Shown piece by piece: positions 4,778-40,843 of a stretch of 40,843 nt of DNA. Position 1 is the first letter of the stretch, and each line of letters starts with the position of its first letter. Location: IMG/VR virus record IMGVR_UViG_3300031787_000289, positions 1-40,843 of that record, one strand, 5' to 3'. The notes under the pieces were generated by a model, which was not told where the DNA came from, made no database searches, and saw only the letters and a list, made by a program, of their open reading frames with translations. The stretch is from a virus. A program made the position numbers and the translations under genes.

Positions 4778-4785
4778 TATTTATA
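4778..4785 (+). promoter_or_regulatory. Late-type TATTTATW signal
   Basis: TATTTATA lies 23 bases before the tail tube start, further away than the other copies. A weak AAGG ribosome-binding element (about 4799) fits a conventional short leader for this highly expressed gene. Confidence 0.5.
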
Positions 4786-23209: not shown

Positions 23210-23269
23210 GTTTTTCCGCATTGCCTACTATTTATTAGTATGGATAACAATGCGGAAAAACTTTTTTTT
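23210..23269 (+). terminator. 14-bp hairpin with T8 tail, terminator overlapping the endonuclease start
   Basis: Left arm 23210-23223 and right arm 23248-23261 are perfect 14-bp complements; the loop (23224-23247) contains the TATTTATT signal and the ATG at 23240. Eight T follow (23262-23269). It can end uvsX transcripts and, in read-through RNA, would occlude the endonuclease start. Confidence 0.8.
23229..23236 (+). promoter_or_regulatory. Late-type TATTTATW signal inside hairpin loop
   Basis: TATTTATT, three bases before the ATG at 23240. A transcript starting here would lack the left hairpin arm. Confidence 0.55.
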
Positions 23270-24172
23270 GAAGATCAATCTGAACGATTATATCAAATCT
23301 TTATAAAAGATGAATCGATATGTGGATTTGCTTCTTTATTTAAACTAAATAAAATTGGTAGCAAAATCGGATCAAAAATAAAAAAATATTTATATGATAA
23401 ATATGGTGAAACTTATTTGAAAAAAATAAGTGCTGTTAGAACGTCTAAAGTTGCTCATCAAAAAAGATCCAAAGATAGTTATTTTATTTCTTCGGAAAGA
23501 AGACAAAAAATGTCTGTTGGTATTAAAAAATATTATAAAAATAATCAGTCCGCTAAATCTAGATGTAGGGATTTAATGATTAAACATTGTTTACCAAAGT
23601 GTCAAACAATTGAGAGTAAAATAAAACGAGTAAAAAGTAGAGACTGGTATAAACCCAGTGAAGACACTAAACAAAAAATGTCGCAATCACAACTTGGAAA
23701 GCCATTAACAGAAGAACATAAGTTAAAATTAAGAAAACCAAAGAAAGCCAAACGATCTAATTTTAGACATACTATTGAAACAAAACACAAATTATCGTTA
23801 ATTACTAAAAATCAGTGGAAAAGTGGAATTCATAAACCAATTTTTAAATCTAAAGGCCAGCAGGAAGTAATTAGATTGTTAAAAGAACAAGGATATTCAA
23901 TTCAAGATGAATATGTTGTTGGGGGGAAGCCATACGATGTGTTTGTAAAAGAAAAAAATTTATTAATAGAATTTAATGGTACTTATTGGCACAGAGATCC
24001 TAGATTTTTTACATCGTCCGATGAAGTTATTAAAATATGGGAAAAAGATAAAAATAAAATGTTGATTGCTGAATCGAATGGGTATATAATAAAAGTTATA
24101 TGGCAACATGACTGGGAACAATGTAAAGACAAAAATATATACATTAAAAAACTATTAAATGAGCAACTTTGA
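23240..24172 (+). CDS. Free-standing homing endonuclease (NUMOD3 repeats plus Vsr-like nuclease)
   Basis: 310 residues, Lys-rich. Several NUMOD3-type helical repeats (SSERRQKMSVGIKK near 85-100, SEDTKQKMSQSQLGKPLTEEH near 139-158, TIETKHKLSLITKNQWKSG) are DNA-binding motifs found in phage homing enzymes. The C-terminal domain (about 205-305) has PYDVFV with D233 and LLIEFNGTYWH with E244, then VIWQHDW, matching Vsr-like/PD-(D/E)XK nucleases. It lies between uvsX and the exonuclease gene, and its 3' end overlaps that gene's start by 14 bases. AT content is higher than its neighbours. It probably cuts phage genomes lacking it and spreads by repair. Confidence 0.8.
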   Translation: MDNNAEKLFFEDQSERLYQIFIKDESICGFASLFKLNKIGSKIGSKIKKYLYDKYGETYLKKISAVRTSKVAHQKRSKDSYFISSERRQKMSVGIKKYYKNNQSAKSRCRDLMIKHCLPKCQTIESKIKRVKSRDWYKPSEDTKQKMSQSQLGKPLTEEHKLKLRKPKKAKRSNFRHTIETKHKLSLITKNQWKSGIHKPIFKSKGQQEVIRLLKEQGYSIQDEYVVGGKPYDVFVKEKNLLIEFNGTYWHRDPRFFTSSDEVIKIWEKDKNKMLIAESNGYIIKVIWQHDWEQCKDKNIYIKKLLNEQL

Positions 24173-30212: not shown

Positions 30213-30767
30213 ATGGAAATCATTTTTGAATATCTTGAAAAAATATTGGTAATAAGCGCAGCTGGTGGCGTACTTTTTGGCGCTTTTAAGTGGATATTTA
30301 CACTGAATCGGAATGTGAAGGAGATTTTGAAAGAAGTTAAGCCTAATTCTGGAACATCACTAAAAGATCAAGTTGCTAAGATTGAAAAACAGGTAAGTTG
30401 TGATAGTAATTTAATAAATACCATATGTAGAAGACAAAAATGGATATTGGATACTAGACCCGAACCAATATTTGAATGTGATGTCAATGGTAATTGTACG
30501 TGGGTAAATGAAAAATATTGTCAATTATTGAAACACGATGTAGAATATTTCTTGAATAATGGATGGAAAAACGGTGTACACGGAGAAGATTTAGAAATGG
30601 TGGAAAAAGAGTGGGAAAGAGCTATTAAAGATAAAAGAAGTAGCACCAGTATACACAGAATGATTGATAGAGAAGGAAATGTATATAACGTTAAAGTAGT
30701 AGCAACCAGAAATAATGGTTATGGGTATATAGGACATATTGAAGTATTAGACGATAAAAAAGATTAA
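30213..30767 (+). CDS. Membrane-anchored PAS domain protein
   Basis: 184 residues. One N-terminal transmembrane helix (about residues 10-30, VISAAGGVLFGAFKWIF) leads to a short helical linker (VKEILKEV...LKDQVAKIEKQV) and then a PAS-type domain (about 75-180): PIFECDVNGNCTWVNEKYCQLL, a GVHGEDLEMVEKEWERAI helix and a final RNNGYGYIGHIEVLDD strand, close to PAS_3. No kinase or cyclase output domain follows. It could sense a ligand or bind a host protein at the membrane. Phage PAS proteins with no output domain are unusual. Function unknown. Confidence 0.7.
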   Translation: MEIIFEYLEKILVISAAGGVLFGAFKWIFTLNRNVKEILKEVKPNSGTSLKDQVAKIEKQVSCDSNLINTICRRQKWILDTRPEPIFECDVNGNCTWVNEKYCQLLKHDVEYFLNNGWKNGVHGEDLEMVEKEWERAIKDKRSSTSIHRMIDREGNVYNVKVVATRNNGYGYIGHIEVLDDKKD

Positions 30768-30785
30768 TAATTAGATACCCAACAC

Positions 30786-30793
30786 TATTTATA
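30786..30793 (+). promoter_or_regulatory. Late-type TATTTATW signal
   Basis: TATTTATA ends at the A of a possible ATG (30793) and 11 bases before the next in-frame ATG (30805). The spacing rule favours 30805 as start. Confidence 0.45.
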
Positions 30794-32178: not shown

Positions 32179-33150
32179 ATGAAAAATAAAAACTCACTAA
32201 ATCTGGTTACTGGCAAGGACTTCAATATCAAGGCTTATCTTGACACTTGTGTAAATCTACGTCCATCTTCTTTGATTATGGACGATCTCAAGTGGAAGTA
32301 TATGGTGCGTAGTGCTATTCGTGGCAAGAACATTCTGCTTCTTGGTCCAACTGGTTGTGGTAAGACTCTAGCAGCGCAAACTGTTGCTAAGGCTATTGGT
32401 CGTGAAGATAACTTCTTCTATTTTAATCTGGGTGCTACACAAGATGCTCGTAGTGCTTTGATTGGCAACACTCACTTTGATAAGAAGACTGGTACTCTAT
32501 TTAAGGAGTCTAGTTTTATCAAGGCTATTCGTACTCCCAACGCTATCATTCTACTTGACGAAATTAGTCGTAGTCATCACGATGGTGTTAATATTCTAAT
32601 GACTGTTCTTGATGATCTACAACGTTATCTTCGTTTGGATGAAAAGGACGATTGTGAAGTCGTTAAGGTTGCTGAAGGTGTTACCTTTATCGCTACCGCT
32701 AACGTAGGTAACGAATATACCGCTACCCGTGTTATGGATCGTGCTCTACTTTCACGTTTTCCAGTCAAGATTGAAGTAACTCCTCTTGACAAGGATAGTG
32801 AGTTTAATCTACTAAAAAACCGTTTCGACATTTCAACCGAAAATCAGCTTGATATGCTCAAGGCTGTTTGTGAAATTGCTGAACATACACGTAAGCAGGT
32901 TAAGCAAGATGATAGCAAGCTAACCAATTTTATTCCTACACGTAGTACAGTTGAAATTGCTGAACTTATTGTTGACGGATTTAATTTGCTTGAAATTGCG
33001 GAGTCAACCATTTATCCTAACTTCAGTGATGATGGAGGTGTAGATAGTGAACGTACTTATATTCGTCAGCTTGTACAAAAGTACATCAAGGTTGAATCTA
33101 AGGAAAAGCTATTTAATGATCCACTAAAGAGTGATCAACCTCCTTTTTAA
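32179..33150 (+). CDS. MoxR/CobS-type AAA+ ATPase
   Basis: 323 residues. Walker A GPTGCGKT (K62-T63), Walker B IILLDE (D127-E128), a sensor-1 Asn in FIATANVGNEY, and the LLSRFPVKIEV arginine-finger/sensor region define a MoxR-type ATPase. Its relatives in cyanophages are named cobS, but this does not prove a cobalamin role. It probably remodels protein complexes with the partner encoded next (25-base gap). Arg is almost always CGT, unlike the structural genes. Confidence 0.8.
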   Translation: MKNKNSLNLVTGKDFNIKAYLDTCVNLRPSSLIMDDLKWKYMVRSAIRGKNILLLGPTGCGKTLAAQTVAKAIGREDNFFYFNLGATQDARSALIGNTHFDKKTGTLFKESSFIKAIRTPNAIILLDEISRSHHDGVNILMTVLDDLQRYLRLDEKDDCEVVKVAEGVTFIATANVGNEYTATRVMDRALLSRFPVKIEVTPLDKDSEFNLLKNRFDISTENQLDMLKAVCEIAEHTRKQVKQDDSKLTNFIPTRSTVEIAELIVDGFNLLEIAESTIYPNFSDDGGVDSERTYIRQLVQKYIKVESKEKLFNDPLKSDQPPF

Positions 33151-33175: not shown

Positions 33176-35254
33176 ATGAGTAACTACAGTGATTTCTGGC
33201 TTAAAGACAACCATTATGAATGGGATTGGGAAGATGAGCTAGATGCGGCTATTGAAGAAGAATCAGGTACAGATGCTACAGTTGATGCTGAGGATCGTCT
33301 CAGTGATACTACAGCTAGGTTGATTCGTTTATCTTCAGCTCGTCGTGCTGTTGCTAACTATGTTAGTATTCTGACGAACCAGAATATTCCTGTAGTATTC
33401 AATGATAGTGCTGTAAATTGTACTGATGGTAAGCTAGTCTATATCAGTAGCGATATTACCAAGAAGGATAATTTTGATGTGGCTGTCGGACTAGCCTTAC
33501 ACGAAGGCAGCCACATCAAATATTCTGATTTTGAATTGTTTAAGACTGTATGGATGAATGTTCCCCGTGACATTTATAACTATACTGAAAAGTTAAGCAT
33601 TTCAAAAGATGAAGTGGGTAAGACTTGTCAGACTATTCTAAACTATGTAGAAGATCGTTTTATCGATTATACTGTACATCGTAATGCTCCTGGCTATCGT
33701 GGATACTACGATGCTTTGTACGACGAATACTTTAATAACAAGGTAATTAGTGATGCTTTGGACAGCGATATGTATCGCACACTAAGCGTTGAGTCTTATA
33801 TGTACCGTATTATCAATCTTACAAATCCTAATACCAATCTTAAGGCTTTGCCTGGTTTGTACGATATTGCCAAAGAATTGGATCTTACCAATATTAGTCG
33901 ATTGACTACTCCAAAGGATCGGTTGAATGTTGCTTATAAAATTGCAGAAATTGTATTTAAAAATATCAATGAACACAATCAAAAGCAAACTGGGCCTGGA
34001 TTTGATCAAAATGATAGTGGTGTACCTGACAATTCCAATGGAATGCCTGGTGATGGCGAATCTGGTAAATCAACTGATGATGTACTTGGTGGTACTGAGT
34101 CTACTGTAACAAGTGATAATGCTGCTGTAACAACTGATGTTGGTACAGATGCAAATATCAGCAAGACCAAACAGAGCAAGATTGCTAAGAGTTTTGAGAA
34201 ACAGAAAGACTTTCTTGCTGGTAAGATCAAAAAGAAGAAGGTTTCCAAGCGTGAAAAGACGATGTTGGATGTTCTTGAAAAGAGTCAGATCGATCTTGTG
34301 CCTGTAGCTCAAGATATGATGAAGGCTAGTGGATTTGTTGGAAGTGTAGAATGTATCTTGGTTAAGAATATGACCAAGGAACTTATTCTATCTGAAGAAT
34401 TTCCAATGAGCGTTGGTGCTAACAATGAAAGTAGTCGTACTGAACTACAAAAGAATGTGGATGCTGGTATTGTTTTGGGTACAAAGCTAGGTCGTCGTCT
34501 TCAAATTCGTAATGAAATTAATATTGATAAGTTTACCCGTCGTAATTTGGGTAAGATCGATAAGCGTTTGATGCACGAATTGGGATTTGAGACTGATACC
34601 AATATCTTTTACAGCACATTTACCAATAAATATAAGAAGGTAAACTTCCATATTAGTGTAGATGCTAGTGCTAGTATGCGTGGACCAAAGTGGAATCGTA
34701 CAATCAAGTTATGTGTAGCACTAGCAAAGGCTACATCTATGATTGATAATGTTGATCTTACTATTAGTTTTCGTACTACTATGAGCTACAATCCATACAT
34801 TGTGGTTGCTTATAATTCTAAGGTAGATAAGTTCTCAAAGATTAAGAATTTGTTTTCTTATTTAATTCCAGTGAATACCACTCCAGAAGGATTGTGTTTT
34901 GAAGCACTAATGAAGTTTCTGCCTAAGTCTGATACTAATACAAACAGTTATTTTGTTAATATTAGTGATGGTGAACCGTGTTTCTATTACAACAACACTT
35001 CATCTGGTATTGCATTTTCTTATCGTGACAAATCAGCTTGTGAACATACACGCACTCAAGTAAGAAAGATTAAGGAATCTGGTTATAATATTATTTCCTA
35101 TTTCGTATCTGATTATGATAATTTTGGCATTGAATTGTTACGTCAGAACTTTAAGACAATGTATGGTAGTGACTCACATTTTATTAATGTGGAGAATTTG
35201 AATCAGATTGTTAAAACGGTCAATAGTAAGATGATGGAAGCTATTGACATATAA
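33176..35254 (+). CDS. HExxH metallopeptidase-like / VWA protein, partner of the MoxR ATPase
   Basis: 692 residues. ALHEGSH (H109-E110...H113) gives a zinc-peptidase-like HExxH. Residues about 260-350 are a low-complexity acidic/Ser/Gly linker followed by a Lys-rich stretch. The C-terminal VWA domain has the metal site DASAS (D496, S498, S500), a TTPEG loop and ISDGEP. Pairing of a MoxR ATPase with a VWA protein is a known arrangement (CobS/CobT, MoxR/VWA chaperones). The HExxH at the front is less usual. It could assemble or cleave a target; the target is unknown. Confidence 0.75.
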   Translation: MSNYSDFWLKDNHYEWDWEDELDAAIEEESGTDATVDAEDRLSDTTARLIRLSSARRAVANYVSILTNQNIPVVFNDSAVNCTDGKLVYISSDITKKDNFDVAVGLALHEGSHIKYSDFELFKTVWMNVPRDIYNYTEKLSISKDEVGKTCQTILNYVEDRFIDYTVHRNAPGYRGYYDALYDEYFNNKVISDALDSDMYRTLSVESYMYRIINLTNPNTNLKALPGLYDIAKELDLTNISRLTTPKDRLNVAYKIAEIVFKNINEHNQKQTGPGFDQNDSGVPDNSNGMPGDGESGKSTDDVLGGTESTVTSDNAAVTTDVGTDANISKTKQSKIAKSFEKQKDFLAGKIKKKKVSKREKTMLDVLEKSQIDLVPVAQDMMKASGFVGSVECILVKNMTKELILSEEFPMSVGANNESSRTELQKNVDAGIVLGTKLGRRLQIRNEINIDKFTRRNLGKIDKRLMHELGFETDTNIFYSTFTNKYKKVNFHISVDASASMRGPKWNRTIKLCVALAKATSMIDNVDLTISFRTTMSYNPYIVVAYNSKVDKFSKIKNLFSYLIPVNTTPEGLCFEALMKFLPKSDTNTNSYFVNISDGEPCFYYNNTSSGIAFSYRDKSACEHTRTQVRKIKESGYNIISYFVSDYDNFGIELLRQNFKTMYGSDSHFINVENLNQIVKTVNSKMMEAIDI

Positions 35255-35710: not shown

Positions 35711-35742
35711 ACCGTATATCTTTGATTTGATATGCGGTTTTT
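35711..35742 (+). terminator. Intrinsic terminator
   Basis: Stem ACCGTATATC / GATATGCGGT (10 bp with one G-U), loop TTTGATTT, then T-run. CTATTTATA begins one base later, again pairing a terminator with a late-type signal. Confidence 0.8.
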
Positions 35743-35743
35743 C

Positions 35744-35751
35744 TATTTATA
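35744..35751 (+). promoter_or_regulatory. Late-type TATTTATW signal
   Basis: TATTTATA seven bases before the ATG at 35759. Confidence 0.55.
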
Positions 35752-35758
35752 CTATATT

Positions 35759-35992
35759 ATGGCAAAAAAAAGAGACAAAGTACTACTATATTTAGACAAA
35801 CTCAACAAAAAAAACTTTTTGGTATATGAGGAAAAAGATTTACTTGATCTTAAATTGCCTATAGAGTATGTTGATAACGGTACCAATTTGTATTTGGATA
35901 CACTAAAAGAAAAGTGGAAAATAATAGAAGTTAAGAGATCTACAAACGAATTGACGTTAAAATTTTCAATGATTTTAAGAAAAAAAGAATGA
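35759..35992 (+). CDS. Small unknown protein
   Basis: 77 residues from ATG 35759; the upstream ATG at 35732 lies in the terminator and is rejected. Lys-rich start (MAKKRDKVLLYLDKLNKKN), strand-rich end. No family recognised. The next gene starts one base after its stop, so the two are probably translated together. Confidence 0.6.
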   Translation: MAKKRDKVLLYLDKLNKKNFLVYEEKDLLDLKLPIEYVDNGTNLYLDTLKEKWKIIEVKRSTNELTLKFSMILRKKE

Positions 35993-35993
35993 T

Positions 35994-37178
35994 ATGGATG
36001 CGTTACAAGAATACTTTGGAGTAGAAGCATTTGATTTTGAGGGAAACAAACGAAAATTAATTGATAATCTTAATTTGTTAAAAGCTATGTCTGTAGAAGA
36101 ACAGACCTTTTACAAAAAGTGGTTGGAAATACAAACTTGTGAAAGTTTATCCAGTAAGGCTAATACAATTAAAGCTAGAATTTGGACTCCCACTGATATC
36201 AATGATGAATCTTTAACTATTAAAGAAATAGAAAGTATAAATCCAACGTTAGTGTATGTTGAAACAAAACAACAAAATGAAGACTGGACGATTCTTCGTA
36301 TTTTTGGTCATACAATGACATTTGACCAAACTCCTGGTAGATTTATTAAATTTCTTGTAACCGATGGTAATGTTGATAGTCCAAAGTATATTGGTTGTAT
36401 TAGTGTTTCCAGCGATGTAATTGCTATTACTGATCGTGATAATTATTTGGGGTGGACTACAACTGATAAAATGGATAACAAACGATTGGCACATAGTGCA
36501 ATTGGTAGTTGTATTATGAGTACCCAACCAATTGGTTATAATTTTCTAGGTGGTAAATTAGTAGCTGCTATGATTACCACATCAACTGTACGTGATCTTT
36601 GGAAACAATTATACGATCAAACTCTTGTGGGTATGACAACTACAAGTTTGTATGGTAGTTATAGTATGTATAACAGTTTAAAATGGTGGCACAAATGTGG
36701 TAGCAGTGCTGGTAAAATTTCAATTAAACCAGATGATAGTATTTATGAAACTTGGCACAATTGGTTGAAAGACATTGATGTAACTGCTTATGATAAAGCA
36801 CTCACTCAAAAAGAAGGAGTAAGTGGACCTGTAACTGGAGCCAAATCTCGTATTCTTGGTATGATATTTAGTAAATGTGGTATAAAACAATCCAATTATC
36901 AACACGGATATGAACGAGGTGTATATTATAGTTGTTTTTATGAAAATACCAAAGAGTTTTTACAAAGCAAAATAGGTATTGATCAATTGAATATGAAAGA
37001 CCTCTTTAAACGTGATATGCAAGGGGTAATTGAGTGGTGGCGACCAAAGGCTGTAGATCGATATAAAAAGCTAAAGAGTGAATCAAATTTAAAGAATACA
37101 GTACATTTTTATAACCAGATGTTTGGGATGTCTTATCAAGAAGCTAAAGACACATATTTCAAAGAAGTTGGTAGATAG
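35994..37178 (+). CDS. DruA-like protein (DUF4338 family)
   Basis: 394 residues. The middle (about residues 110-260) has the DruA/DUF4338 pattern: RFIKFLVTDG, YIGCISVSSDV, a DRDNYLGW motif near 150, NFLGGKLVAAMITTSTVRDLW near 183-203, and VGMTTTSLYGSYSMYNSL near 212-229. The YxCFYENTKEFL and MSYQEAKDTYF ends are also folded. DruA is the marker of Druantia bacterial defence loci; here no other Druantia gene is present and it sits in a phage structural region with a late-type signal ahead. It could be a DNA-processing enzyme or a domain used in interphage competition. Function inferred only. Confidence 0.65.
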   Translation: MDALQEYFGVEAFDFEGNKRKLIDNLNLLKAMSVEEQTFYKKWLEIQTCESLSSKANTIKARIWTPTDINDESLTIKEIESINPTLVYVETKQQNEDWTILRIFGHTMTFDQTPGRFIKFLVTDGNVDSPKYIGCISVSSDVIAITDRDNYLGWTTTDKMDNKRLAHSAIGSCIMSTQPIGYNFLGGKLVAAMITTSTVRDLWKQLYDQTLVGMTTTSLYGSYSMYNSLKWWHKCGSSAGKISIKPDDSIYETWHNWLKDIDVTAYDKALTQKEGVSGPVTGAKSRILGMIFSKCGIKQSNYQHGYERGVYYSCFYENTKEFLQSKIGIDQLNMKDLFKRDMQGVIEWWRPKAVDRYKKLKSESNLKNTVHFYNQMFGMSYQEAKDTYFKEVGR

Positions 37179-37236: not shown

Positions 37237-38271
37237 ATGGCAAATACCCCAATTAATGCAATGACCGCTACATTCGGGTCTGGTGATCAGACTGCGATAA
37301 AAATGAATGTAGCGGATTCAGGACCGTCAGATAGTACCAGTAAACTTATTGATTTACAACTTGGGAGTGTCACAAAATTCAAAGTTCTCAAAAGAGGTGA
37401 AGTAATTGCTACAAATTTTACGGGTAGTTTTAGTGGTAGTACTTTTGTTAAAAATCAATCAAGTGTTGCTGGCACCAAATATATAATATTTTCTGATGGA
37501 AGTGGTCAAAGAACATTGGGATATGATACTTCATTAAATTATGATGCTTCTTCAAACACATTAAATACCAATGGCAGTGTTAATATTGGTGGAGATATAG
37601 ATAGTACAAATGGTTCGCCACTTTTACTATCAAGTCCAACCACAATAGAGTTTGGTGGTGCTGCTACCACAATTCAAATAGGAACATTTTCCGTTGGTAG
37701 TTATACACGATTCAACTCAAGACAGGTCAGAGGTAATTTCACAGGATCATTTACAGGCAGTTTTAGTGGAAGTCAAGGTAATTTTACCAAGTTAAGTGGT
37801 AGTAATGCTAAAATAACAGGTAGAGTAATAGCCACATCATTTACTGGTAGTATTAGCGGTAGTAGAGCTAGTTTTAATAAATTTACCGCAAATTCATTTA
37901 CAGGAAGTATCAGTGGCGCCTTGGCTACTTTTAATAGTATCAGTGGCGCCTTGGCTACATTTAATAAAATAACCGGTAGTAGCGGGTTAATAACTGGTAG
38001 ATTAGTTGCTACTTCGTTTACTGGAAGTATCAGTGGGGGATATGCTGCTTTTGGAAATATTACTGGTGGATATTCTTCTTTTACAAAAGTAACTGGCAGT
38101 AGTGGCAAAATTCAAAATAATTTTATTATAAATGGTACATTAGAATTGAATAATGCTATCACAGGATCAAATTCTATGTTTATAAGTGGGGCTGGTAGTC
38201 CTATTGCTGGTTACATAGGAATTTTAATAGGCGGAACAAAATATAAGTTACCATTGTATCCTTGGACTTAA
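37237..38271 (+). CDS. Tail fibre/structural protein with FTGSISGS repeats
   Basis: 344 residues. The N-terminus (MANTPINAMTATFG) and middle hold beta-rich repeats such as FTGSFSGS, ATSFTGSISGS and GALATFN, typical of trimeric beta-helical fibres. The C-terminal GYIGILIGGTKYKLPLYPW is common at the end of phage fibre proteins. It lacks the GNVGIGT repeats of the first fibre but is probably part of the same adsorption apparatus. The start follows two late-type signals. Confidence 0.8.
   Translation: MANTPINAMTATFGSGDQTAIKMNVADSGPSDSTSKLIDLQLGSVTKFKVLKRGEVIATNFTGSFSGSTFVKNQSSVAGTKYIIFSDGSGQRTLGYDTSLNYDASSNTLNTNGSVNIGGDIDSTNGSPLLLSSPTTIEFGGAATTIQIGTFSVGSYTRFNSRQVRGNFTGSFTGSFSGSQGNFTKLSGSNAKITGRVIATSFTGSISGSRASFNKFTANSFTGSISGALATFNSISGALATFNKITGSSGLITGRLVATSFTGSISGGYAAFGNITGGYSSFTKVTGSSGKIQNNFIINGTLELNNAITGSNSMFISGAGSPIAGYIGILIGGTKYKLPLYPWT
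37906..37965 (+). repeat. Exact-frame 30-base tandem repeat in fibre gene
   Basis: Units 37906-37935 and 37936-37965 differ at one base and each encode SISGALATFN. A recent in-frame duplication within the fibre. Confidence 0.9.
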
Positions 38272-38274
38272 GGC

Positions 38275-38303
38275 TTGACTTATTATAAATTTGTTGGTAA
38301 GAT
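38275..38303 (+). promoter_or_regulatory. Sigma70-like promoter for UV endonuclease
   Basis: TTGACT (38275-38280), 17 bases, TGG then TAAGAT (38298-38303). The start point would be about 38310, and the ATG is at 38311, so the mRNA may be leaderless. Confidence 0.75.
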
Positions 38304-38310
38304 GATAGCA

Positions 38311-39222
38311 ATGAAAAAATCATTGTGCTGTATTTCTCTTCAACTTCAAGAAAAAGGACTCAAAGCTAATACTATGACCAAGACTAGATTCTTGGCATTG
38401 GAACGAAAAAATGCTTTATCTACTGTTTCACAGCGTACCTTGAACAATGTAAATGTTGCGGTAAATACCTTTTCTTTTTGTATAAGTAAAGGATGGAATT
38501 ATCGAATTAGCAGTGATTTATTTCCATTGGCTACTTTACCCGAAGCAAATTTATCGTTTGATGTTCTTCCTGACAAAGACCGTATTTATGCTGAATTCAA
38601 ACGTGGTGCTGAAATTATTAAAAAGAACAATTTACGATGTAGTACACATCCCGATCAATTTGTTGTGCCTGCAAGTGCTACAAAGACTGTTGTGGAAAAG
38701 TCTATTATTGAACTAAAAAACCATGCATCTATTATGGATTTATTTGGTTTGCCACAATCATATGAAGCTCCTATTAATATTCATATGAATTGTTATAAAG
38801 GCAATGCCAAAGATATTGCTAAACGTTTTATTGATGTGTACAATAATTTTCCTGTAAATGTAAAGTCTCGATTGGTACTTGAGAATGAAGACAAGCCAAA
38901 CAGTTGGAAGGTAGAAGAATTGTATGAATTAATTTATTCAAATACTGGCATTCCTATCACTTACGACAATCTTCACTTTCGTTGTAACCCAGGCAAATTG
39001 TCTGCTAAAGAGGCAGTTAAATTGGCTACGTCCACTTGGGGAAATCATCGTCCGCTATTTCATTTCAGTGACAACGATCTAACCAACAAGAATCCACGTG
39101 CGCACGGTGATTATGTACGCAGTGTTCCAGATGAATATGTTGATCTTGATGTAGATTTTGAATTTGAATTCAAAGCAAAGGACTATGCTCTTGATCGGTT
39201 TGAAAAAGAATTCAAAAAATAA
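38311..39222 (+). CDS. uvdE: UV damage endonuclease, UvdE/UvsE family
   Basis: 303 residues from ATG 38311; the open frame extends to 38275 but that part is promoter. Family marks are LNNVNVAVNTFSFC, YRISSDLFPLATL, RCSTHPDQFVV, the IMDLFGL helix, a NIHMN strand, LVLENED and an FHFSDND metal-site strand of a TIM barrel. It nicks DNA 5' to UV photoproducts to start repair. A phage copy protects its genome in sunlight. Confidence 0.85.
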   Translation: MKKSLCCISLQLQEKGLKANTMTKTRFLALERKNALSTVSQRTLNNVNVAVNTFSFCISKGWNYRISSDLFPLATLPEANLSFDVLPDKDRIYAEFKRGAEIIKKNNLRCSTHPDQFVVPASATKTVVEKSIIELKNHASIMDLFGLPQSYEAPINIHMNCYKGNAKDIAKRFIDVYNNFPVNVKSRLVLENEDKPNSWKVEELYELIYSNTGIPITYDNLHFRCNPGKLSAKEAVKLATSTWGNHRPLFHFSDNDLTNKNPRAHGDYVRSVPDEYVDLDVDFEFEFKAKDYALDRFEKEFKK

Positions 39223-39580: not shown

Positions 39581-39824
39581 CATATTCAATAATCAAACGA
39601 TGATGTGGCTACTACTAATAATAGTAGCCATTTTTACTTTTGCAAACTTTTACTTGTTTATCAAGCTGCTTAGACAGTTTGACGATCATCAAATTCTAAC
39701 GGTAGATGCATTGGAATTAATTAATGTTAAAAACAATAAAATATCAAAAGACATTGAAATTTTGCAAAAGCGTAGTAGAATATTAAATAATGAAAGCAAA
39801 GAAAACATCCGAAAACAAAGTTAA
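39573..39824 (+). CDS. Small membrane protein
   Basis: 83 residues from ATG 39573 (GTG 39555 and ATG 39567 are also in frame). One transmembrane helix (MMWLLLIIVAIFTFANFYLFI, about residues 10-30) is followed by a cytoplasmic-type charged helix with LINVKNNKISKDIEILQKRS, a probable coiled coil. Function unknown. The 3' end overlaps the next gene by 35 bases. Confidence 0.6.
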   Translation: MSYIFNNQTMMWLLLIIVAIFTFANFYLFIKLLRQFDDHQILTVDALELINVKNNKISKDIEILQKRSRILNNESKENIRKQS

Positions 39825-40263
39825 AGTTCGTGGTTTATTTGATCATATAAATCATATTCGTGAGGTAAAGAATAAAGATTATTATAAGTCTTTATCCGAG
39901 GAAGAAAAGAAATCATTTAACAAGTATATGATAATTAGATTTCTTAGTATGGATGTTGATATTATAGAAGACGTATCATTTGTTTCTAAATATTTTCAAA
40001 ATATACCAGATGAACAATTTTATCAAGTAATGATCGATTTGGTGCCAAAAGGAAGAAAGTTCTGTAAGTATATTAAAAATAGTACCGAGGGTATCAATGA
40101 AACAATATTAGATTGTATTTGTAAGAAATATAAAATTGGAAAACGGGATGCTATAGATTACTATAACATATATACGTCTAATGACACTAACTTAAAAGAC
40201 TTGTGTGAACTAATACAAGGTTTTGGTTATAGTGAAAAAGAAGTAGAGAAGTTATTTAAATAA
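39790..40263 (+). CDS. Possible clamp-loader small subunit, gp62-like
   Basis: 157 residues. A YMIIRFLSMDVDIIEDVSFV segment, then DEQFYQVMIDLVPKGRKFCKYIK, matches my memory of short clamp-loader (gp62) proteins of environmental T4-like phages, which have an RxLSM motif then a PK..xFxxYIK motif. The C-terminus (YKIGKRDAIDYYNIY, GFGYSEKEVEKLF) is helical. If right, it works with gp44 to load the sliding clamp, but neither gp44 nor gp45 is in the window. It starts inside the upstream membrane gene, suggesting coupling. Confidence 0.5.
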   Translation: MKAKKTSENKVKVRGLFDHINHIREVKNKDYYKSLSEEEKKSFNKYMIIRFLSMDVDIIEDVSFVSKYFQNIPDEQFYQVMIDLVPKGRKFCKYIKNSTEGINETILDCICKKYKIGKRDAIDYYNIYTSNDTNLKDLCELIQGFGYSEKEVEKLFK

Positions 40264-40264
40264 T

Positions 40265-40843
40265 ATGAAAATTATAGGTGTATCTGGTTTTGCTCGTAGT
40301 GGCAAAGATTTGTTTGCCAAAGTTGCTCAAAACGTTTTGGAAAAACGTGGACTGAAAGTTGAAAAGTATGCATTAGCATATGAGTTAAAAAACGATCTAA
40401 AAGACCTTATCAAAACTAAGGTGGGAATTGATGTTTTTACAGAAAACACCGAAGAAAAGAATATTATTAGACCATTGTTAGTTGCTTATGGCGATGTAAT
40501 GAGAAAGGTATCAGAAGGTAAATATTGGACGGGTAAGATTGAACAAAAGATCAAACAGTCTAATGCTGATGTAATTTTTATTACAGATATCAGATATGAT
40601 GTATATCCCGAGGATGAGTGTACTTGGTTACAAAATAAACAAGACGGTAAATTGGTACACGTTACTAAATTTAAACAAGAACCAATGCCTTCAGGCAGAA
40701 GATTCAGTAATAATAAAATTGTTAAGATTTATAATTCCGCCGCAAACGATCACGAAATGTTAAATGATCCAAAGGTAAAGGCTAAAGCTGATTGTGCTTT
40801 TGAATGGGAAGATTATAGCGATAAGTTAAACGGATTCTCTTTA
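40265..40843 (+). CDS. Deoxynucleoside monophosphate kinase-like protein (3' partial)
   Basis: The frame starts at ATG 40265, one base after the upstream stop, and is still open at the right edge; 193 residues visible. The P-loop GFARSGKD near residues 7-14 and IFITDIRYDV with its Asp/Arg fit a dNMP kinase (T4 gp1 type). It would supply dNDPs with NrdA/NrdB for phage DNA. The lid domain is not yet recognisable. Confidence 0.7.
   Translation, partial: MKIIGVSGFARSGKDLFAKVAQNVLEKRGLKVEKYALAYELKNDLKDLIKTKVGIDVFTENTEEKNIIRPLLVAYGDVMRKVSEGKYWTGKIEQKIKQSNADVIFITDIRYDVYPEDECTWLQNKQDGKLVHVTKFKQEPMPSGRRFSNNKIVKIYNSAANDHEMLNDPKVKAKADCAFEWEDYSDKLNGFSL

Follow-up and report, generated by a model that had tools for sequence, protein, structure and literature searches.

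A DruA-like protein kept in phage replication gene clusters, with a fold and relatives that suggest chemical marking of DNA

DruA is the marker of Druantia type I, a widespread defense system in which DruA is encoded in one operon with DruB, DruC, DruD, and the large DruE helicase. Here, we asked what a gene of this antiphage family is doing in a phage genome. The window, by which we mean the whole stretch of DNA that was analyzed (IMG/VR record IMGVR_UViG_3300031787_000289, 40,843 bases), carries an intact ORF at 35994-37178 on the plus strand, which begins with ATG and encodes 394 aa. An earlier note on this DNA had read the middle of the protein as a DruA pattern (DRDNYLGW, NFLGGKLVAA, and GMTTTSLYGS with YNSL) and had proposed that it may serve a phage function such as DNA processing or superinfection exclusion.

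The motifs are present, and a profile search agrees with this reading. The 394-aa protein matches Pfam PF14236 DruA (DUF4338) over residues 80-324 with an E value of 3.9e-22 and a score of 79.2 bits against a curated cutoff of 27 bits, which makes it a member of the DruA/DUF4338 family. It also matches the PADLOC DruA model (E 8.7e-21) and PHROG 19197, a family of uncharacterized function (E 1.2e-28). A sequence search of the PDB returned nothing up to an E value of 10, and NCBIfam holds no model for any DruA form. The protein and its conserved segments are as follows.

35994..37178, + strand: DruA-like protein, PF14236 long form, 394 aa, with a predicted GNAT-fold core at about residues 84-314 and helical N- and C-terminal extensions (Pfam, AlphaFold2, PDB fold matches)
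36435..36455, + strand: RDNYLGW, residues 148-154, the hallmark RDxxIGW of DruA/DUF4338 (alignment of long, short, and Druantia DruA)
36525..36560, + strand: QPxGYNFLGGKL, residues 178-189, conserved, at the start of GNAT helix alpha3, which is the position of the acyl-CoA pyrophosphate loop ([QR]xxG); largely invariant in viral long forms, with GGKL also in Druantia-I DruA
36630..36683, + strand: GMTTTSLYGSYSMYNSLK, residues 213-230, conserved, spanning the end of strand beta5 and helix alpha4, a candidate active-site segment (conservation in viral long forms)

In all viral long forms, the residues kept are Q178-P-x-G181 and G186-G-K-L189 in the acyl-CoA loop region and, in the beta5/alpha4 segment GMTTTSLYGSYSMYNSLK, T216-T-S-L-Y-G221 (T216, T217, S218, and G221 among them) and Y226. 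The counterpart of this last motif in Druantia-I DruA reads TTS-x-x-G-(x)-S-x-YN. The His in the HTM segment of the long form is not invariant. Long forms are basic throughout, with a pI of 8.0 to 9.7.

Because the window carries gp32-like, UvsX, gp41-type helicase, NrdA/NrdB, baseplate, and tail genes, it is a fragment of a T4-like myovirus. The named isolates closest to it are Microcystis phage Mel-JY01 (UvsX and helicase) and Flavobacterium phages (helicase), at 37 to 51% identity. Orthologs of the DruA-like protein that are 56 to 94% identical, with long invariant stretches, occur in at least 80 virus contigs. We counted neighboring genes in 65 distinct loci, each scored where the flank was long enough. 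The loci were chosen by their DruA match, with neighboring genes not a selection criterion, and a search with the 692-aa neighbor returned almost only contigs already in the DruA-selected set. The genes around DruA in the window are listed here with their counts.

32179..33150, + strand: MoxR/CobS-like AAA ATPase, a kept neighbor (50 of 52 loci) that adjoins DruA in pelagiphages too (Pfam AAA_5, 7.8e-18)
33176..35254, + strand: 692-aa protein of unknown function, a kept neighbor (51 of 52 loci) in the position of the pelagiphage "peptidase" (neighborhood survey)
35732..35992, + strand: small ORF of 86 aa (77 aa if translation starts at the ATG at 35759) that ends 1 nt before the DruA start, is found in the closest relatives only, and bears TATTTATA (sequence, neighborhoods)
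37237-38271: fiber-like protein, no Pfam or PHROG family match
38275..39222, + strand: UvdE-type UV damage endonuclease, a common neighbor (38 of 48; Pfam UvdE, 4.3e-40)
39790..40263, + strand: gp62, small subunit of the clamp loader, which follows DruA at a distance of no more than 6 kb in 48 of 48 distinct loci (Pfam Phage_clamp_A, 5.6e-12)
40265..40843, + strand: dNMP kinase, cut by the window end, a kept downstream gene (47 of 48; Pfam DNMK, 1.8e-6)

In hhalign comparisons with cyanophage gp62, the 39790-40263 product scored above every other family of the window. Elsewhere in the window, a gene beside UvsX (23240-24172) encodes an MTES_1575 (Vsr-like) nuclease domain with a weak NUMOD3 match and is probably a homing endonuclease, and 30213-30767 encodes a PAS-fold domain protein with a TATTTATA element upstream, which is unusual for a T4-like phage.

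None of the neighbors matches the Druantia DruB, DruC, DruD, or DruE models in Pfam, PHROG, or PADLOC, in line with what the earlier note had claimed. Among them, PADLOC returned only hits of the MoxR gene to generic AAA ATPase models and a single weak hit of 30793 to a candidate family. The type I operon of DruA with DruB, DruC, DruD, and DruE is therefore not present at the window, in contrast to loci L121 and L176.

Two further elements of context, a late-type signal upstream of DruA and a fiber gene beside it, turned out not to be general. The TATTTATA element (TATTTAT) occurs 17 times in the window against 8 expected, and many copies lie 5 to 25 nt before start codons (examples on the plus strand are at 4778, 7362, 10771, 18298, 30193, 30786, 35744, and 37213); we consider it a candidate for a late promoter whose leader is very short. 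Relatives keep the element before the genes at 30793 (44/45), 30213 (18/20), and 37237 (5/6). The copy at 35744 precedes the small ORF upstream of DruA instead, and a count of TATTTAT across relatives found it near DruA in only 1 of 73 family members, so a late-gene reading of DruA was rejected. A partnership between DruA and the fiber was rejected as well, since a fiber-like gene occupies this variable slot in 6 of 48 loci. The late signal and the fiber neighbor are local accidents.

The phage DruA-like protein is not a stray defense gene; it is a long-conserved part of a phage replication gene cluster. The T4-type replication cassette runs 45-44-62-regA-43, and in several lineages the DruA-like gene lies inside or adjoins this cassette, although it is absent from most T4-like phages, with T4 itself outside the comparison. 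Cyanophage homologs are 25 to 27% identical to the window protein. The order gp44-DruA-gp62 is found in eight of the nine cyanophages examined (S-SSM7, S-PRM1, S-T4, S-SCSM2R, S-SM2, S-CAM9, S-SRM01, and S-CREM1), and in several cyanophages the DruA-like gene and gp62 have overlapping stop and start codons. In the ninth, S-B68, the DruA-like gene precedes gp47 by two genes. Two copies are present in pelagiphage HTVC008M: the first has the recombination-nuclease genes on one side and the peptidase/CobS pair on the other, which is the arrangement nearest to the window and is also that of Mosig, and the second overlaps the end of the gp43 polymerase and is followed by UvsX. Within cyanophages the gene is accessory (approximately 25 records versus approximately 460 with gp62), and one GenBank record already names a homolog "methylcarbamoylase mom." That several virus lineages retain DruA in their replication/recombination module points to a role in the phage's own DNA metabolism. 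Separately, a contig binned as a Thermoplasmata archaeon, but probably viral, encodes DnaB helicase, a small ORF, two tandem DruA-like genes, and a family-B DNA polymerase (PolB) at L087:604-7026, and a second such pair occurs elsewhere in the same bin.

We compared the viral proteins with those of defense loci in a tree of 42 proteins, in which placements in detail are unsure because some branches are long. The viral long forms group in a single clade, whose support of 94/99 falls just short of the starred threshold, the Druantia type I DruA proteins make up a separate one (100/98), and the short forms stand apart from all long forms (100/100). Among the Druantia-type loci in the tree, a large helicase is nearby in L121 and L176, and L122 consists of DruA and helicase only. 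Druantia type I DruA is a long form of the same family with a similar length, colinear with the window protein over residues 80-356, and the RDxxIGW, GGKL, and TTS..G..SxYN motifs are common to both. Unlike it, the window protein has no DruB, DruC, DruD, or DruE, belongs to the viral clade, and sits among phage replication genes.

In approximately one-fifth of the relatives fetched, a second, short DruA-family protein of about 250 aa is encoded 1 to 5 kb downstream of the long form (loci L052, L056, L058, L065-L072, L074, L076, L077, and L079-L081). The short paralog has the classic DUF4338 ending ETFVxPxR ... GxxYxAxNWxxVGxTxG, which is absent from the long form. In single-sequence scans, 8 of 14 short phage paralogs match the Mom PHROG (best E 3e-5). 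The AlphaFold model of the short paralog is poor (pLDDT 54).

An AlphaFold2 model of the long form, built from 29 orthologs, reached a pLDDT of 86.3 and a pTM of 0.82. Its predicted elements are a strand at 85-88, a helix at 92-105, strands at 117-123 and 132-139, a strand at 168-176, helices at 180-207, a strand at 213-218, a short helix at 225-228, and strands at 233-243 and 303-314. In this model the order of elements is that of GNAT acetyltransferases, for which we used the beta1-alpha1-beta2-beta3-beta4-alpha3-beta5-alpha4-beta6 topology with an acyl-CoA loop as the criterion. The top 50 Foldseek matches in the PDB are nearly all acetyltransferases (p300/CBP, MYST, GNAT, and TacT), with malonyl-CoA decarboxylase also among them; this result alone is suggestive, because the best E value is only 0.026, no match falls below 1e-3, and full-length TM-scores are low. 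In the viral-model library BFVD, the best fold match is Faunusvirus A0A3G4ZXG3 (E 1.9e-18), and since this is a giant-virus protein, large viruses of eukaryotes have the fold as well. Matches to Faunusvirus A0A3G4ZXG3, Yasminevirus A0A5K0UAJ3, and Dasosvirus A0A3G4ZRA1 range from 1.9e-18 to 1.5e-8.

Mom is a GNAT-superfamily enzyme that puts an acyl-type group on adenine in phage DNA (PMC7824862). We compared profiles of the DruA forms with each other and with Mom of phage Mu (PF25680, PHROG 1384), which has an acetyltransferase-type fold. Because E values from pairwise hhalign runs are not database E values, we relied on controls: among 32 unrelated families, the highest probability was 6.6 and the highest score 28.5. 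The long phage form aligned with Druantia-I DruA at a probability of 99 (score 133, 266 columns), with the short phage form at 96.4 (score 72), and with short bacterial DUF4338 at 95.5 (score 67). Short bacterial DUF4338 aligned with Mom at probabilities of 93.6 (score 57) and 96.3 (score 73) over 164 to 175 columns, and the short phage form did so at 88.7 (score 48). These alignments indicate that short DUF4338 proteins are homologous to Mom, over most of its length. The direct comparison of the long form with Mom was negative (probability 0.5), the window protein has no match to PF25680 or PHROG 1384, and its candidate catalytic positions differ from those of Mom. Mom-profile matches are confined to short relatives of the window protein, and the link from the long form to Mom, as judged from profiles, runs via these short forms.

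Together, the fold and the distant relatives of the phage DruA-like protein suggest chemical marking of DNA. We tentatively favor, at somewhat less than an even chance, a replisome-coupled GNAT-fold enzyme whose substrate would be freshly synthesized phage DNA. Long-form DruA would be produced as one component of the phage replication machinery and would bind DNA close to the replisome, where, like Mom of phage Mu, it would add an acyl-type group to a DNA base; phage DNA modified in this way would then resist host nucleases. We infer the reaction from the predicted fold, and it may not be that of Mom, because the long form lacks an acidic residue where beta5 ends: Mom has SxAD there and short DruA has ETFV, whereas the long form has TTTS. 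Among the phage functions proposed in the earlier note, DNA processing is the best fit as a prediction, and superinfection exclusion fits poorly with a gene fixed in a replication/recombination module.

A nonenzymatic role in the replisome is possible but doubtful. The GNAT-like fold would then bind DNA ends, single-stranded DNA, or forks and bring in recombination nucleases, the polymerase, or the clamp loader; in Druantia, DruA would similarly bind DNA as a partner of the DruE helicase. The gene is repeatedly embedded beside gp43, gp44, and gp62 and near gp46/gp47, its catalytic-type positions are altered relative to Mom, and the basic pI of the long forms is also consistent with such a role. 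However, the conserved residues cluster at the GNAT motif-A loop and at beta5/alpha4, the presumed active site, which would be unusual for a pure scaffold, and many of them, including GGKL, are common to Druantia-I DruA; we favor a catalytic protein over a scaffold for these reasons.

Acyltransferase-fold proteins also modify proteins or RNA, and GNATs commonly modify proteins or tRNA. An acyltransferase that acts on RNA or on a protein such as RNA polymerase, the clamp, or a host nuclease would agree with the GNAT fold and with the presence of TacT among the fold matches. We consider such a substrate unlikely, and DNA the most likely one, because the closest functionally known kin are a DNA-modifying enzyme (Mom) and a defense system directed at DNA, and because the gene travels with polymerase, clamp loader, and recombination genes. 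One 734-aa protein (L086:8915-11116) joins a ParB N-terminal domain (ParB_N) to a DruA domain that belongs to the viral long type, and ParB genes adjoin Mom in actinophages; by analogy, these arrangements likewise point to DNA.

An anti-defense decoy, imitating DruA and thereby poisoning the Druantia complexes of the host, would be in keeping with the GGKL and TTSxxG...SxYN signature common to Druantia-I DruA, but it is very unlikely, given that the viral long forms are a clade of their own, apart from Druantia-I DruA, and that a decoy leaves the deep conservation in cyanophage and pelagiphage replication modules unexplained. Although DruA marks Druantia type I at loci L121 and L176, a phage-borne defense or superinfection-exclusion gene is highly improbable at a position fixed beside replication genes, with the partner genes absent and no conserved late signal. 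A spurious DruA match, by chance or misannotation, has almost no likelihood, since nothing was found in its favor and PADLOC, PHROGs, the profile comparison, and the tree independently agree with the Pfam score of 79 bits against a cutoff of 27.

Returning to the favored DNA-modifying enzyme, a broader proposal would be that viral long DruA proteins are enzymes, coupled to the replisome, that place acyl modifications on DNA bases and are kin to Mom but of a kind of their own, and that Druantia DruA does the same chemistry or recognizes such a mark; we regard this as rather unlikely as a whole. If true, a phage DNA-modification enzyme and a bacterial antiphage protein would be two uses of one enzyme family. 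If the protein is a replisome part with a DNA-modifying fold in cultivated phages (HTVC008M, S-SSM7, and S-PRM1), DruA activity would be directly accessible on phage DNA, with no need for the rest of the Druantia genes. In viral and metagenomic data, DruA/DUF4338 by itself is a poor marker for Druantia.

In the literature searched, which left most subscription papers outside its coverage and so offers no proof of priority, we found no account of where viral DruA sits in the T4-type replication cassette of different lineages, of the homology of short DUF4338 to Mom, or of long and short DruA in one phage. Nor did we find there a description of a biochemical activity of DruA, and "DruA" as a whole word is absent from a main paper on Druantia III. 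Cyanophage DruA-like proteins, DUF4338 as a GNAT domain, and Mom as a GNAT enzyme are already published. In six Synechococcus phages (S-PRM1 shown), Phold called a DruA-like CDS from structure (PMC12774648); that paper reports fold similarity only, and these proteins are the homologs at 25 to 27% identity noted above, on another sub-branch of the viral clade. DUF4338 was independently assigned as a GNAT domain in a fusion with DndF (PMC10853773, 2024), where the same Pfam domain is joined to a DndFGH restriction subunit, whereas the window protein is free-standing in a phage replication module. A bacterial long DruA at L178:7931-17828 lies in an operon that ends in a 1678-aa FtsK/HerA-like protein and resembles a DndFGH-type restriction locus.
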